Source: a virus. From it: a stretch of 23,959 bases of DNA. Under the pieces are notes generated by a model that saw nothing but the letters and a program-made list of their open reading frames with translations, did no database searches and was not told the origin of the DNA. The stretch spans positions 1 to 23,959 of the IMG/VR virus record IMGVR_UViG_3300006752_000227. The stretch is one strand, 5' to 3'. The position numbers and the translations under genes are program-made. This document shows positions 14,089 to 20,177 of the stretch, piece by piece; the first letter of the stretch is position 1, and the number at the start of each line of letters is the position of its first letter.

Positions 14089-14748
14089 ATGAAAAAAATT
14101 AAAATTTTAAATTTATACGCTTGTTTAGGCGGAAATCGTTACAAATGGGATGAGGTAACAGAGGTTGAAGTTACTGCTGTGGAATGGGATAAAGAACTTG
14201 CAAACCTATACCAAGAACGTTTCCCAAATGATAAAGTAATAGTAGCAGATGCACACCAATACTTATTAGACCATTACAAAGAGTTTGATTTTATCTGGAG
14301 TTCCCCACCTTGTCCAACGCATAGCCGCGCAAGATATTGGAATTCATCTAATTATGATACAAAAACAAAACCGATTTTTCCAGATATGAAATTATATGAG
14401 GAAATTTTATTTTTAAAACATTATTTTAAAGGTAAATTTGTTGTTGAAAATGTAATTCCATACTACGAACCACTTATTATTGCGCAAAAAAAAGGTAGGC
14501 ATTTATATTGGACAAATTTTAATTTACCTAATAATTTAAACGATAGGCGTTTTAAAATAAGTTCAGCAAAAAATGAGTTTAATGGTTTATGTAAATTTCA
14601 CGAATATGATTTTAATAAATACAAAGGTGATCAACCATTAAAAAAAATAGCAAGAAACCTGGTAGATTATGAAGCTGGCAAAACTATTTTAGAAACTGCA
14701 TTAGGAATTATTACAAAACAAAACGTTAAACAAACAACTCTTTTTTAA
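14089..14748 (+). CDS. DNA (cytosine-5) methyltransferase, short form
   Basis: The 219-residue protein has the ordered motifs of C5-cytosine methyltransferases: motif I-like LNLYACLGGNRYKW (AdoMet binding), a motif II-like VEWDKELA, and motif IV SSPPCPTHSRAR with the catalytic Cys at 75. Motif VI is VVENVIPYY with E120. A short target-recognition part follows, then RNLVDYEAGKTILETALGI, which matches motifs IX/X. It is much shorter than bacterial enzymes (over 300 residues) but typical of phage versions in Bacteroidota. It would modify phage DNA, probably against host restriction. It starts 11 bases after the primase-helicase stop and overlaps the next ORF by one base. Confidence 0.88.
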   Translation: MKKIKILNLYACLGGNRYKWDEVTEVEVTAVEWDKELANLYQERFPNDKVIVADAHQYLLDHYKEFDFIWSSPPCPTHSRARYWNSSNYDTKTKPIFPDMKLYEEILFLKHYFKGKFVVENVIPYYEPLIIAQKKGRHLYWTNFNLPNNLNDRRFKISSAKNEFNGLCKFHEYDFNKYKGDQPLKKIARNLVDYEAGKTILETALGIITKQNVKQTTLF

Positions 14749-15602: not shown

Positions 15603-16040
15603 TTGAAAAAAAAAGTAAACATTGCATCTGTAAAAGAAAATCCGGACAATCCAAGATTCATAAAAGATTCTAAATTTAAAAAATTAGTCAAGTCAATTAA
15701 GGCGTTTCCTGAGATGTTAGAGAAACGGCCAATAGTAGTTGATGAGAATATGGTTGTTCTTGGCGGAAATATGCGTTTAAAGGCTTGTAAGTCTGCCGGG
15801 TTGTTTGAGGTTTGGATTGATATTGCACAAGGTTGGACAGAGCAACAAAAGCAAGAGTTCATTGTTAAAGACAATGTTGGCTTTGGAGAGTGGGATTGGG
15901 ATATACTAGCAAATGAATGGGATGTTCAAAAGTTGGTTGAATGGGGGGTTGATTTACCCGTTTATGATGTTCCTATTGATGACGACCAAGACGACAAAAA
16001 CGATACAGACAAAGAAGTTTGCGAATTGTGTGGAAAATAA
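15603..16040 (+). CDS. ParB N-terminal-domain protein (TTG start)
   Basis: The 145-residue protein matches the ParB/Srx-like N-terminal domain. It has NPDNPRFIKDSKFKKLVKSI (13-32), RPIVVDENMVVLGGNMRLKA with the GGNMR motif at 54-58, and a helical part (EQQKQEFIVKDNVGFGEWDW). It then runs into an Asp-rich linker and ends with CELCGK. Only TTG at 15603 gives the complete domain; the first ATG is about 37 codons in. In phages this domain occurs alone or fused to N6-adenine methyltransferases, and family members bind CTP or act as nucleases. Here the methylase half is absent. The final C-x2-C could be half of a metal site. Confidence 0.8.
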   Translation: MKKKVNIASVKENPDNPRFIKDSKFKKLVKSIKAFPEMLEKRPIVVDENMVVLGGNMRLKACKSAGLFEVWIDIAQGWTEQQKQEFIVKDNVGFGEWDWDILANEWDVQKLVEWGVDLPVYDVPIDDDQDDKNDTDKEVCELCGK

Positions 16041-16065
16041 ATTTGCACAATTAAAAGAAAAATTA

Positions 16066-16073
16066 TAATTTAG
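16066..16073 (+). promoter_or_regulatory. Putative promoter with -33 and -7 boxes
   Basis: TTTG at 16042-16045, a 20-base spacer, then TAATTTAG at 16066-16073. This fits the Bacteroidota promoter layout (TTTG at -33, TAnnTTTG at -7). It points into a gene-free stretch that holds two hairpins. Confidence 0.55.
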
Positions 16074-16076
16074 CAG

Positions 16077-16154
16077 AGGATTTAAACTGCCAAGTAAAAA
16101 ATCCTTTTTCATAAAATTTAAGTTTGTACCTCTCAGAAATGGGAGGTTTTTTTT
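16077..16154 (+). ncRNA. Candidate small RNA or leader with attenuator-like hairpins
   Basis: About 80 bases lie between the promoter at 16066 and a T-run, with no ORF. Hairpin 1 pairs AGGATTT (16077-16083) with AAATCCT (16099-16105). Hairpin 2 is the terminator. AGAGG near the 5' end can instead pair with CCTCT of the terminator arm, so an alternative fold is possible. Whether this is an independent RNA or a transcription-attenuation leader is not shown by the sequence. Confidence 0.4.
16128..16154 (+). terminator. Rho-independent terminator
   Basis: ACCTCTC (16128-16134) pairs with GGGAGGT (16141-16147) with one G-T pair and a six-base loop, followed by eight T. It separates the replication-side genes from the cassette-like block. 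Confidence 0.85.
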
Positions 16155-16197
16155 AAAATTTTTTTTGTTTTTTCTTTTGTAATTAAAAAAAATCTTT

Positions 16198-16205
16198 TAC
16201 TTTTG
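16198..16205 (+). promoter_or_regulatory. Putative promoter with -33 and -7 boxes
   Basis: TTTG at 16176-16179, an 18-base spacer, then TACTTTTG, an exact TAnnTTTG match. It is the best promoter in the window and would start RNA near 16210, right at the beginning of the first hairpin of the cassette-like block. Confidence 0.65.
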
Positions 16206-16206
16206 C

Positions 16207-16261
16207 GTAGAACCTTTGGATAAGGTGCGTTTTAATGCACTTTATACGTTGTTGGGTTTAG
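16207..16261 (+). repeat. attC-like hairpin site, upstream copy
   Basis: TAAGGTGC (16221-16228) and GCACTTTA (16237-16244) pair around GTTTTAAT with one G-T. AAC at 16211-16213 and GTTGGGT at 16251-16257 sit at the outer ends. GTTGGGT fits the integron R' core GTTRRRY. The left core fits only in AAC. A single copy could also be read as an RNA leader hairpin. Confidence 0.5.
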
Positions 16262-16292
16262 TACGGGTTATTAACAGACAAAATTAAATAAA

Positions 16293-16544
16293 ATGGAGAC
16301 AAAAAAAACATACAAATACAAAGTAAAAGAAACAGGTAATGAATTTGAAGCAGTTTTAGTTAAAGGTAAAGATAGATGTTATTTGTATTTAGACAAAAAT
16401 CAAAAAAAACCTATTGCTTCTTGGGATTTAGAAATGTACGATGATTTTAATTTTTACTACATATTAGAGCCTTTTACAAATCCAGACAAAATTACAGAGC
16501 CAACAAAAGAGGATATACTTGATTATTTGAAAATTACAGTTTAG
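16293..16544 (+). CDS. Hypothetical protein inside the cassette-like block, 83 aa
   Basis: The 83-residue protein begins METKKTYKYKVKETGNEFEA and has an N-terminal beta-rich half with alternating charged and hydrophobic residues. It then carries an aromatic acidic stretch (SWDLEMYDDFNFYYILEPF) and ends in a helix (TKEDILDYLKI). It lies alone between two hairpin sites, about 41 bases after the proposed left boundary, with its stop 3 bases before the right inverted repeat. Single small ORFs of unknown function are typical cargo of integron cassettes. No family recognised, and no catalytic motif seen. Confidence 0.65.
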   Translation: METKKTYKYKVKETGNEFEAVLVKGKDRCYLYLDKNQKKPIASWDLEMYDDFNFYYILEPFTNPDKITEPTKEDILDYLKITV

Positions 16545-16547
16545 CAT

Positions 16548-16596
16548 TAAACCCAACACTAAGATAAAAACACGTTTTAATGTGTTTTATTAACTG
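16548..16596 (+). repeat. attC-like hairpin site, downstream copy
   Basis: TAAACCCAAC (16548-16557) is the exact complement of 16251-16260, and the match extends to 11 bases. It contains ACCCAAC, fitting the integron R'' core RYYYAAC. AAAACAC and GTGTTTT (16567-16573, 16582-16588) pair around GTTTTAAT, the same loop as in the upstream copy, with a bulged A and then further A-T pairs. GTT follows at 16596-16598. Confidence 0.5.
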
Positions 16597-16602
16597 TTGC
16601 AT

Positions 16603-16625
16603 CACGTTTTAATGTGGGGTTTAGT
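16603..16625 (+). repeat. Third copy of the hairpin loop motif, shortened
   Basis: CAC-GTTTTAAT-GTG (16603-16616) repeats the CGTTTTAATG core of the two attC-like sites and runs into GGGTTTAGT (16617-16625). The same nine bases occur at 16254-16262. It looks like a deleted copy of the upstream site in which the part between the stem and the core is missing. Confidence 0.5.
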
Positions 16626-16666
16626 TTTTTAATTTTTAATTAAATTCTTATGTATTTATATTTTTT

Positions 16667-16674
16667 TAACTTTG
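16667..16674 (+). promoter_or_regulatory. Putative -7 promoter box of terS
   Basis: TAACTTTG, an exact TAnnTTTG match, ends 5 bases before the terS ATG. The transcript would begin at or within a few bases of the start codon, so it may be leaderless. No clear -33 box. Confidence 0.55.
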
Positions 16675-16678
16675 CGTT

Positions 16679-17053
16679 ATGGCAACAAAAACCGACATAT
16701 TAAAAAATAATCTTTTAGACGCATTAGAAAAATCACTTGGAGTAGTCACAAGTGCTTGTAAAATAGTTAAATGTAATAGATCAACCTTTTATAAGTATTA
16801 CAACAATGACCAGGATTTTAAAGCGTCTGTTGATGAATTGCAAAACTTAACTTTAGACTTTGCTGAAACGCAACTGCATAAGCAAATACAAGACGGAAAC
16901 ACAACTGCAACAATATTCTATTTAAAAACCAAAGGCAAAAAACGTGGTTATGTAGAACGTAAAGAGGTAGAGATGACCGCAGAGGTTAGCACGAGCAAAT
17001 TATCAAACGAAGCAAGAAAAAAAATTGACGACATTCTAAACGATGAATATTAA
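16679..17053 (+). CDS. terS: Terminase small subunit
   Basis: The 124-residue protein precedes and overlaps the large terminase gene by 11 bases. The N-terminal half holds a helix-turn-helix (LGVVTSACKIVKCNRSTFYKYYNNDQDF, in part, about residues 20-47), typical of small terminases that bind the packaging start site. A central helix (LTLDFAETQLHKQIQDG) and ATIFYLKTKGKKRGYVER follow; this last segment is a common small-terminase feature. The C-terminal tail is acidic and would contact TerL. The ATG lies almost directly behind a promoter box. Confidence 0.85.
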   Translation: MATKTDILKNNLLDALEKSLGVVTSACKIVKCNRSTFYKYYNNDQDFKASVDELQNLTLDFAETQLHKQIQDGNTTATIFYLKTKGKKRGYVERKEVEMTAEVSTSKLSNEARKKIDDILNDEY

Positions 17054-18398
17054 CGAAATAATTAAACAAAAATGTGAGGATTCGCTTTTGTTTTTTACTC
17101 GTTATATTTTCAAAGAGAATACCGGAAATAAATTCGAAGTAGCAGAGTTTCATAAAACATTAGCCAACACATTACATAAAGTACATAACGGCGAAATAAA
17201 GCGCCTTATAATTAATATACCTCCAAGGTATGGTAAAACTGAAATAGCCGTTAAAATGTTTATTGCCTGGACACTTGCTAAAAATCCAATGGCAAAGTTT
17301 ATTCATTTATCTTATTCTGATTCGTTGGCGCTTGATAATAGCTCAATGACAAAAGAATATATTAATTCAGACGCTTACCAAAGTATTTGGAATTTACAAC
17401 TTAAAAAGGATTCACAATCACAAAAAAAATGGTACACAACGCAAGGCGGTGGAGTTTATGCAACATCTTCAGGGGGTGCAATTACGGGTTTTGGTGCGGG
17501 TACTGGTGGAGCAATTATAATTGATGATCCATTGAAACCTGATGACGCTTTGTCTGATGTTAGGCGGTCGTTTATAAACAATCGATACAATACAACTATT
17601 CGGTCAAGGGTTAATGATAGAGACGTTCCTATTATTGTTATTATGCAAAGACTACACGAGGAAGATTTGAGCGGTTATTTATTAGATGGCGGTAGTGGAG
17701 AGCAATGGCATCATTTAAAGTTATCAGCATTAGATGACGATAACAAAGCGTTATGGCCCGAAAAACATTCTTTTGAGGAACTTGAAGCAATACGCCAAGC
17801 CGATAGATATACTTTTAGTGGTCAGTATTTACAAATCCCGTCGCCTCCTGAAGGTGGAGAGTGGCGAAAAGATTGGTTTAATATTATACACAGAGCCGAG
17901 TTACCGAGCGATATATCTTTTGAAATGTACATTGATGGCGCTTATACCAAAGACACAAGAAACGATCCGACGGGAATACAAATAAGCGGTAAAAGTGGCG
18001 ACAATCTTTACATATTTAAAAGCATTGACAAGTACTTAGAAATGCCTGAGCTAAAAAACTTTGTTACTTCTTTTGTGCAATCTTGTGGCGTTCCAATATC
18101 GCAAATATTAGTCGAGCCTAAAGCATCCGGAAAATCGCTTGTGCAGCTATTAAGGCGTGAAACTAGATACAATGTATCAGAAATAAAAACAAACTTTGTC
18201 AGGTACTCTAAAATCGAACGTGCGAGAGCATCCTCGCCATTTATTGAAGGCGGTAGAGTTTTTCTAGTTAAAGATAATTGGAATGATGCGTTTTTACAAC
18301 AAGTTAGCACGTTTCCAAACGCTAAACACGATGAGCATATTGACGTAACATCATACGCTATTGAAAGGAATTTAATTAACAACTTTTTTGTAGTTTAA
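17043..18398 (+). CDS. terL: Terminase large subunit
   Basis: The 451-residue packaging motor and nuclease has complete active sites. The ATPase domain has Walker A PPRYGKTE (60-67, K65 and T66), Walker B AIIIDD with D161 and D162, and the coupling segment IVIMQRLHEEDLSG. The RNase H-like nuclease domain shows D298 (YIDGAYT), E358 (VEPKASG) and D434 (HIDVTSYA). Length is normal for the family. The enzyme binds the portal vertex, pumps DNA into proheads using ATP and cuts concatemers. It is followed by the portal gene after a promoter-like box. The nature of the packaging (cos or pac) is not decidable here; the missing terminal repeat and possible circular ends fit headful packaging. Confidence 0.95.
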   Translation: MNINEIIKQKCEDSLLFFTRYIFKENTGNKFEVAEFHKTLANTLHKVHNGEIKRLIINIPPRYGKTEIAVKMFIAWTLAKNPMAKFIHLSYSDSLALDNSSMTKEYINSDAYQSIWNLQLKKDSQSQKKWYTTQGGGVYATSSGGAITGFGAGTGGAIIIDDPLKPDDALSDVRRSFINNRYNTTIRSRVNDRDVPIIVIMQRLHEEDLSGYLLDGGSGEQWHHLKLSALDDDNKALWPEKHSFEELEAIRQADRYTFSGQYLQIPSPPEGGEWRKDWFNIIHRAELPSDISFEMYIDGAYTKDTRNDPTGIQISGKSGDNLYIFKSIDKYLEMPELKNFVTSFVQSCGVPISQILVEPKASGKSLVQLLRRETRYNVSEIKTNFVRYSKIERARASSPFIEGGRVFLVKDNWNDAFLQQVSTFPNAKHDEHIDVTSYAIERNLINNFFVV

Positions 18399-18449: not shown

Positions 18450-20177
18450 ATGGCATCTTTCCTTGACAGATTTAAATTTTCAAAAAAAAATCAAAACACA
18501 AACGAACAATATAACAGAGCCATTTATAACTGGCTAGGTAATTCTGTTCATTGGAATAAAGAAAATGATGATTCTTATATTACGCAAGGGTATCAAAAAA
18601 ACGCAACAATATACTCTTTGATAAATTTAATTACAAAGGCGGCAACAACAATTCCGTTTCAAATTTATGAAAAGACAAATGAAAACGATTATAAAAGATA
18701 TAAGGCTTTAACTTCGGGAATGATGGATGCAGCGTCTATACAAAAGGCGTCTTTATTGCAAAAAAACGCATTGGTTGAGTTACAAGATACTGAATTACAT
18801 AAAATATTAGAGCGCCCAAATCCGGCACAATCTTACAACGCCTGGATAACTGAATTGATTGCTTTTGGTAAATTAACCGGGAATAGATACATTTACGGAA
18901 TTGGCCCTGATACTGGAGCAAATGTTGGCAAATTTACTGAGTTGTATGTTATGCCTTCGCAAGTGATGGAGATTATATCAAATGGTATAATGGAGCCAGT
19001 ATCTAAATATAAATTAGAATATAACGGAACAAAATTTATTGACGCATCTGAAATCTGCCACATTAAAGACTTCAATCCTTACTATGATGGTACTGGATCA
19101 CATTTGTACGGACAATCGCCATTGAGAGCGGGTTTGCGTTCTTTAACAACCAATAACGAAGCGGTACAAACGGGAGTAAAATATTTACAAAACCAAACTG
19201 CAAGAGGTTTATTAACTTCTGAGATGGGCGATATTAACGAGGTACAAGCGCAACAATTAAAAGATAAATTTAAACGTCAGCACCAAGGATCGGACAATGC
19301 CGGAGATATTATAATAACTCCAAATAAAATGTCTTGGGTTAATTTTGGACTAAATGCGTCTGATATTTCTTTGATAGCACAATACAACGCCTCAGTAAAA
19401 GATTTATGTAATATTTACAATGTACCGGTGCAATTACTAAACAATACTGATTCATCTTCATATAACAATATGAAAGAGTTTAAAAAGGCATTGTATCAAA
19501 ACGCAGTTATCCCGGAACTTATTAAAATTAAAGACGAATTAAATAGATGGTTAGCGCCTAAATATGGCGACAAACTTTGTATTGAGTTTGATTTTTCTGT
19601 AATTCCTGAAATGCAAGAGGAAACTGAAAAGGTGGTTGATCAACTATCTAAAGCGTGGTGGATTACGCCAAATGAAAAGCGTTCTGCAATGAATTACGGA
19701 AAAGATGAGGATAATACTCAATTAGACGATTATTTTATTCCGGCTAATTTAATTCCAACAAATCCAAGCGATATTGATTTACCTATTGAGTCAATAGATG
19801 TAGACGTAAACAAGTTTTTAAGTCAAAAAAAAAACGAAATAATTAAGGCCGAAACGTATAATAATTATCCTCAATCTGCAACTAACAACGCCAAAAGGAT
19901 GATTGAATGGCGAGAAAAATATGGTCGTGATGTTGTTACTGCCGGAACTGAGGTTGGTTGGCGTAGAGCATCGCAACTTGCAAACAGAGAAAACATTTCA
20001 TTGGATGTTGTTAAAAGAATGGCGCAATTTAATCGCCACAGAGATAACGCAAAGATAGATCCTAAATATAAGGGAGAGCCTTGGAAGGACAACGGCTACG
20101 TTGCCTGGAACTTATGGGGTGGAACTGCCGGGGTTGATTGGGCAATTAGAGAAGTAAACAAATTAAAAGACGACTAA
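18450..20177 (+). CDS. Portal protein with C-terminal extension
   Basis: The 575-residue protein matches HK97-type portal proteins. Residues about 30-440 contain NATIYSLINLITKAATTIPFQIYE, LLERPNP-like ILERPNPAQSYNAWI, GNRYIYGIG, DICHIKDFNPYYDG-like EICHIKDFNPYYDG, and YNVPVQLLN. The portal forms the 12-mer ring at one capsid vertex through which DNA passes. About 468-575 is an added domain (NNAKRMIEWREKYGRDVVTAG, in part, then RMAQFNRHRDNA and NGYVAWNLWGGTAGVDWAI). I know this domain from the C-termini of other phage head proteins such as XkdF-like ones, so it is a fusion rather than part of the portal core. The stop TAA is followed at once, in the same frame, by the TTG start of the next gene. 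Confidence 0.92.
   Translation: MASFLDRFKFSKKNQNTNEQYNRAIYNWLGNSVHWNKENDDSYITQGYQKNATIYSLINLITKAATTIPFQIYEKTNENDYKRYKALTSGMMDAASIQKASLLQKNALVELQDTELHKILERPNPAQSYNAWITELIAFGKLTGNRYIYGIGPDTGANVGKFTELYVMPSQVMEIISNGIMEPVSKYKLEYNGTKFIDASEICHIKDFNPYYDGTGSHLYGQSPLRAGLRSLTTNNEAVQTGVKYLQNQTARGLLTSEMGDINEVQAQQLKDKFKRQHQGSDNAGDIIITPNKMSWVNFGLNASDISLIAQYNASVKDLCNIYNVPVQLLNNTDSSSYNNMKEFKKALYQNAVIPELIKIKDELNRWLAPKYGDKLCIEFDFSVIPEMQEETEKVVDQLSKAWWITPNEKRSAMNYGKDEDNTQLDDYFIPANLIPTNPSDIDLPIESIDVDVNKFLSQKKNEIIKAETYNNYPQSATNNAKRMIEWREKYGRDVVTAGTEVGWRRASQLANRENISLDVVKRMAQFNRHRDNAKIDPKYKGEPWKDNGYVAWNLWGGTAGVDWAIREVNKLKDD

Follow-up and report, generated by a model that had tools for sequence, protein, structure and literature searches.

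Integron gene cassettes carry a single gene and are delimited by foldable attC sites with outer GTT and AAC boxes, at which exchange takes place between G and TT (AA|C on the folding strand). In class 1 and sedentary chromosomal integrons the cassette ends form inverted repeats, a tyrosine recombinase stands at the head of the arrays, and it is the strand antisense to the chromosomal cassette genes that folds. Integrons are generally regarded as very rare in Bacteroidetes and as dependent on the IntI-specific domain. This additional domain was named as defining for IntI (PMC9668308), and the only complete integron that IntegronFinder 2.0 reported for Bacteroidetes is that of Salinibacter ruber (PMC9024848). 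Cassette clusters lacking an integrase (CALINs) were described in the virulent phages Polaribacter P12002L, Tetrasphaera TJE1 and Pseudoalteromonas PH101 (Qi et al. 2023, PMC9892861). Their cargo includes methyltransferases, and their sites were published as classical attC. Tailed phages furthermore carry so-called morons, i.e. accessory genes with their own promoter and terminator; ordinary ones at the hotspot upstream of terS are free of folded sites.

Here we analysed a tailed-phage fragment of 23,959 bases (the window), an incomplete genome with genes for a ParB-like protein (15603-16040), terL (17043-18398) and a portal protein (18450-20177) in addition to terS. An earlier note on this DNA had proposed an integron-cassette-like block with hairpin sites in front of the terminase genes. 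We consider it probable, at roughly 70%, that this block is a one-gene cassette of an integron-like system that is common to marine Flavobacteriaceae and their phages and that is swapped in trans by a host recombinase. This reading builds on a family of sites, its covariation and strand bias, swap junctions, chromosomal arrays beside a recombinase and the absence of a recombinase from the phage contig. Of the original proposal, the single gene, the foldable ends and the occurrence of the sites in cassette arrays held, whereas a classical attC and a recombinase of the IntI type did not. As in the phage CALINs, two attC-like sites and one ORF are found, and the contig of 23,959 bases has no PF00589 (tyrosine recombinase) match. 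Members of the site family occur in P12002L as well (L206; 30009-30055, 30910-30954 and 38036-38089), located beside methyltransferase and Mom-like genes. In contrast to the present analysis, the CALIN paper (PMC9892861) does not describe the family, its conserved loop, its spread or its chromosomal counterpart.

At the locus three hairpins have their CGTTTTAATG cores at 16228, 16573 and 16605 and differ by compensating stem bases, just as had first been noticed. A 14-nt copy CACGTTTTAATGTG is present, as is a 27-nt direct repeat (16228/16573, spacing 345). Taken alone the core is unremarkable: With one mismatch allowed the 10-mer occurs 5 times in the window, while 4.9 occurrences are expected. 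The non-chance signal is the recurrence of the surrounding sequence. The 20-mer CACGTTTTAATGTGTTTTAT of the second hairpin has exact copies in 25 IMG/VR viral stretches, Tenacibaculum phage JQ contains a match to the first site and its neighbourhood (E=4e-12, 79% over 92 nt), and the stems change compensatorily. The enclosure of the 83-residue ORF by an 11-base perfect inverted repeat can be read directly from the sequence (Table 1).

Table 1. Features between the ParB-like gene and terS in the window. R1 denotes the covariation model of the site family.
Feature	Position	Strand	Remarks
Intrinsic terminator, 3' of ParB-like gene	16128..16155	+	sole terminator-like site in 16000-16800; same stem-loop in empty relatives L031, L048 and L100
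A/T-rich promoter-like stretch ..TTTTACTTTTG with Bacteroidota-type -7 box	16160..16206	+	extra copy of the pre-terS sequence type
Class A attC-like site AAC-CTTTG-GATAAGGTG-CGTTTTAATG-CACTTTATAC-GTT-GTT	16211..16253	+	R1 61.3 bits; site in R1 training set
Putative mobile cassette (C...AA, bounded on each side by an AA|C junction) with site body, 83-aa gene and closing inverted repeat	16213..16556 (~344 bp)	+	
Cassette R' arm TGTTGGGTTTA	16250..16260	+	perfect 11-bp inverted repeat with 16548-16558
Cassette ORF, 83 aa	16293..16544	+	from ORF list
Cassette R'' arm TAAACCCAACA	16548..16558	+	perfect 11-bp inverted repeat with 16250-16260
Class C (terminal) attC-like site AAC-ACTAAG-ATAAAAACA-CGTTTTAATG-TGTTTTAT-TAACT-GTT	16555..16598	+	R1 55.2 bits; site in R1 training set
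Terminal element, second hairpin CACGTTTTAATGTG	16603..16616	+	stem changes compensatorily among relatives
Conserved right flank: promoter TTTTTTTAACTTTGCG and terS (16679-17053)	16645..17053	+	contiguous with 16177 in empty relatives; terS is the terminase small subunit by PHROGs

The protein encoded by the cassette has no Pfam match and only a weak PHROG match (E 0.033). The only related proteins retrieved by a protein-level search come from two contigs of the same phage, and three contigs of this phage are the only ones in which the site-bearing cassette was seen at this locus. An Rfam scan of the window gave no match above the gathering scores, nor did the block match a plasmid collection. 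The hairpin at 16603..16616 folds weakly by itself in the window; its counterpart in L024, likewise second in the terminal element, resembles a terminator (CCCCAC..GTGGGG-TTTAGTTTTTT). The two-hairpin terminal element (16558-~16630) is fixed and recurs in many phages, and the third hairpin (core at 16605) is part of it and forms no cassette boundary of its own.

The window sites belong to a large family. In the marine phage contigs fetched, sites with the CGTTTTAATG core, a strongly covarying stem and outer AAC/GTT occupy about 140 distinct places, where they stand before many different genes and not before terS alone. A pattern derived from the first hairpin retrieved 100 viral stretches, in which 89 distinct sites of classes A and B were counted; such pattern scans presuppose part of the core, and sites that are related to each other do not count as independent. 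Classes A, B, C and D share the layout AAC - spacer - stem - CGTTTTAATG - stem - spacer - GTT, which in classes C and D is followed by a second hairpin with arbitrary stem. The fold comprises a stem of 8-12 bp, a C-GTTTTAAT-G loop and, in most classes, unpaired asymmetric spacers of 5-6 and 3 nt. In class A, the commonest (n=58), sequence information stays high between YAAC and GTTR and drops to background level on both sides; in this profile the 22 central bases were conditioned on while the outer bases and the boundaries were free. Two class A sites of L181 (1168-1251) lie 62 bp apart with no gene between them and are apparently an empty cassette.

Covariation was quantified on 40 distinct sites. 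Altogether 93% of the cells were paired, and nine pairs had changed on both sides. Double-changed cells numbered 83 compared to 22 in shuffles, and the covariation score was 0.408 compared to 0.139 ± 0.013. As in integrons, the single-strand fold is kept by compensatory change. The model R1 was built from 40 distinct aligned sites, both window sites among them. The site that a circular form of the window cassette would carry folds at -13.8 kcal/mol (z -5.4).

The ends of the cassettes became apparent from junctions at which neighbouring sequence is swapped. When the site body and the right flank are constant and the left gene varies, the outer A of AAC lies 0-4 nt from the breakpoint in 39 of 67 distinct pairs. 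Where one gene with its AAC precedes various bodies, divergence sets in at most 2 nt after AAC in 12 of 14 left-homologous pairs. This is in agreement with cassette exchange at the G|TT box as known from integrons, the exact base lying beyond the resolution of the comparison. The contigs L146 (1-4836, minus strand) and L152 (4948-7805) are ~95% identical on both sides of an insertion, by which L152 gains a class A site and a DNA methyltransferase gene starting exactly at AAC|; the insertion is site-precise at one end and imprecise at the other. An automated search for fully clean cassette insertion/deletion pairs among the phage contigs returned none. The two ends of a cassette are inverted repeats of each other. 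In 36% of the cases (8/22 phage cassettes) the match beyond GTT extends over at least 4 bases, compared to 4.8% on re-pairing, and the window cassette is among the four best of the 22. From the swap breakpoints at AAC|body in other phages we deduced the cassette limits given in Table 1, with the junctions falling in the 5' AAC boxes 16211-16213 and 16555-16557, such that the window cassette (~16213-16556) would be followed by the fixed terminal element. The cassette phase initially suggested, 16252-16596, folds equally well as a circle and was ruled out by the swap junctions at AAC.

Sites of the family are also present in bacterial chromosomes. R1 matches were obtained in 118 of 299 genomes, a family-level group around Tenacibaculum haliotis. 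These matches in Flavobacteriaceae chromosomes refuted a restriction of the sites to phages, to which the 0 bacterial matches of one exact 20-mer had pointed. We picked 17 chromosomal regions by the recombinase alone and used 320 kb as control. Sites were found downstream of the recombinase in 15 of the 17 regions, where 61 array sites had the expected and 2 the other orientation. Their density amounted to 4.0 per 10 kb compared to 0.25 in the control, i.e. a 16-fold difference. In genome G197, the array begins directly after the gene of a 391-aa tyrosine recombinase. The linkage between recombinase and sites consists in adjacency only, and across whole genomes the recombinase and the short sites co-occur only weakly (odds ratio 1.5, p=0.05). 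Many chromosomal array sites are about 124 bp long and have the same arms. In the set L253-L282, near-identical sites of ~124 bp lie directly downstream of the recombinase, with up to 12 of them in 11 kb (e.g. L276:1246-12240, L265:3941-14912, L269:864-11391). The array-linked recombinase genes of G073, G080, G057 and G088 contain an in-frame stop, as in decayed platforms.

A recombinase heading the array was thus seen in the chromosomes and not in the phages. PF00589 matches occurred in only 6 of the 49 phage records searched and were missing from the window contig, so that movement of the window cassette would take place in trans. The lack of an integrase, on which the earlier note had based an entry in trans, was thereby confirmed for the contig. 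Of the expectation that the block and its ORF would be found in cassette arrays, the part on the block's sites was borne out in Flavobacteriaceae; the ORF was seen only in the same phage. The array-linked recombinase keeps all catalytic residues and is 34% identical to IntI1. Its best NCBIfam match is NF040815 (XerA/integron integrase), which scored above cut-off in 4 of 5 recombinases. It differs from XerA by about 100 additional residues at the N-terminus and by its linkage to cassette arrays. In the literature searched, outside of which subscription papers and preprints fall, we found no description of a flavobacterial cassette system, and the system is apparently both large and undescribed.

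One may ask whether the block is simply an ordinary integron cassette with a true attC, moved by classical IntI in trans. IntI1 did recombine the phage-borne site attC2 of P12002L (PMC9892861), and the family members at 30009-30055 and 30910-30954 of that phage, which lie beside methyltransferase genes, are plausibly the published sites. The window boxes GTTGGGT/ACCCAAC moreover fit the GTTRRRY/RYYYAAC cores, as had been pointed out. In the family as a whole, GTTR/YAAC is nearly always present, but R' GTTRRRY occurs in 17 and R'' RYYYAAC in 12 of 135 sites, and the former frequency is at chance level given GTTR. The proposed covariance scan for attC also came out negative. The model R2, a small model of seven classical attCs with the loops of 3 hand-shortened, detected 12 attC sites in control plasmids and gave no match in the window, nor in any of 11 flavobacterial array regions. 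With the IntI model TIGR02249 all five recombinases scored below the cut-off (199-222 bits compared to 265; 209 bits for the array-linked recombinase). The IntI-specific additional domain near patch III, about 42 IntI1 residues in two stretches, is missing in the three recombinases compared. Further differences from integrons are the invariant GTTTTAAT loop in the short form of the site and the inversion of the cassette genes in phages. An ordinary integron cassette is thus an unlikely identity of the block.

Comparison with relatives at the terS locus bears on a different origin. Between the ParB-like gene and terS, segment 16128-16678 forms a hotspot in which small accessory ORFs are framed by duplicated promoter/terminator sequences, and the terminator at 16128..16155 is its conserved left border. 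In L031, L033, L034, L035, L036, L046, L048 and L100 position 16177 is joined directly to 16645, leaving one terminator and one promoter before terS. The anticipated empty-site versions exist, with the bare promoter-terS junction in at least 8 near relatives. None of them lacks exactly 16252-16596 as had been predicted; the missing segment is the whole of ~16178-16644, which includes the duplicated promoter and exceeds the cassette. In L029, L037, L038, L039 and L043 other small ORFs lie between two promoter-like stretches. The stretch at 16160..16206 is missing in the empty relatives and present in those with other small ORFs; it belongs to the inserted segment and presumably acts as a promoter. 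Since relatives are either empty or carry other small ORFs, the locus is an accessory-gene hotspot of which the site-bearing cassette is a recent resident.

As the segment missing in the relatives is larger than the cassette, the cassette may have arrived at this locus by ordinary recombination of a promoter-gene module. In the extreme the block would be a moron that entered the pre-terS hotspot by homologous or illegitimate recombination, with the sites as unused passengers. Both the size of the missing segment and the site-free small ORFs that relatives hold at the same place between duplicated promoter/terminator sequences are in agreement with such an origin. However, it leaves the site family, the AAC| junctions and the inverted-repeat cassette ends unexplained, and the window cassette retains a perfect 11-bp end repeat and foldable sites. 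We therefore regard passenger sites as improbable and continue with the reading of a cassette swapped in trans. In L012, L014, L110 and L116, the gene directly 3' of a terminal element (class B or C) varies and is ParB-like, terS or another phage gene, as if there were several fixed platforms per genome.

Which strand folds was evaluated from the non-Watson-Crick pairs of the stems. On one strand of the site these are predominantly G.T, with a G.T:A.C ratio of 119:5 in chromosomes and 92:10 in phages. In chromosomes the folding strand is antisense to the neighbouring genes in 161 of 168 cases (7 in the same sense), as in integrons, while in phages it is sense in 266 of 277 (11 opposite). The gene direction relative to the site is thus inverted between the two, which direct transfer of cassettes from chromosome to phage does not account for. 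Since the G.T bias stays on the same site strand despite the opposite gene sense, selection acts on a particular DNA strand regardless of transcription. The swap box AA|C lies at the 5' end of this strand, which corresponds to the bottom-strand geometry of attC.

This selection provides the main evidence against a function of the hairpins as phage mRNA elements for stability, processing or termination. In phages the hairpins do lie between co-directional genes with the mRNA strand as folding strand, and the last hairpin of the terminal element resembles a terminator in L024. The bias, however, goes with the site rather than with the transcript, in chromosomes it is the gene-antisense strand of the sites that retains the G.T pairs, and the flanks change abruptly at the AAC box, which makes the mRNA alternative of the earlier note very improbable. 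A pac/cos packaging signal, suggested by the position upstream of terS, is the least plausible of all, as family hairpins were absent from this position in the terL relatives examined and also stand before many other genes.

In the preferred reading of a cassette swapped in trans, each site would fold as a single-stranded hairpin on one particular DNA strand. The host tyrosine recombinase that heads the chromosomal arrays would act on the folded sites in trans and cut at AA|C of the 5' box. Circular cassettes would then be exchanged at the sites, the junction of the circle reading TTAAACCCAAC-CTTTG-GATAAGG. The window cassette would thereby have come to lie between a phage promoter, from which it would be expressed, and the terminal two-hairpin element 5' of terS. 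In a wider view, for which we see an even chance, Flavobacteriaceae would own a separate integron lineage with a recombinase free of the IntI domain, sites of its own and large arrays, while their virulent phages would run a parallel pool with inverted genes on the same sites, mainly for the exchange of DNA modification. If this holds true, cassette exchange through folded single strands does not need the IntI-specific domain, and marine phages gain a route to trade methyltransferase and Mom-type genes. It would also account for the gene order and the site repeats in flavobacterial genomes.

The cargo of the phage cassettes is dominated by DNA modification. Directly behind class A sites we counted 48 distinct ORFs, of which at least 29 encode such functions, namely 17 N6/N4 methyltransferases, 6 Mom, 2 C5, 2 MT-A70 and 2 D12 proteins. 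This suggests that the phage cassettes form an anti-restriction pool, which may protect from host defences. Examples of methylation and Mom cassettes are seen in L178, L190, L195, L121, L147 and L122. The window also encodes a C5-cytosine methyltransferase-like protein at 14089-14748 (PF00145, E 1.5e-10), and a similar ORF lies directly behind a class A site in L119.
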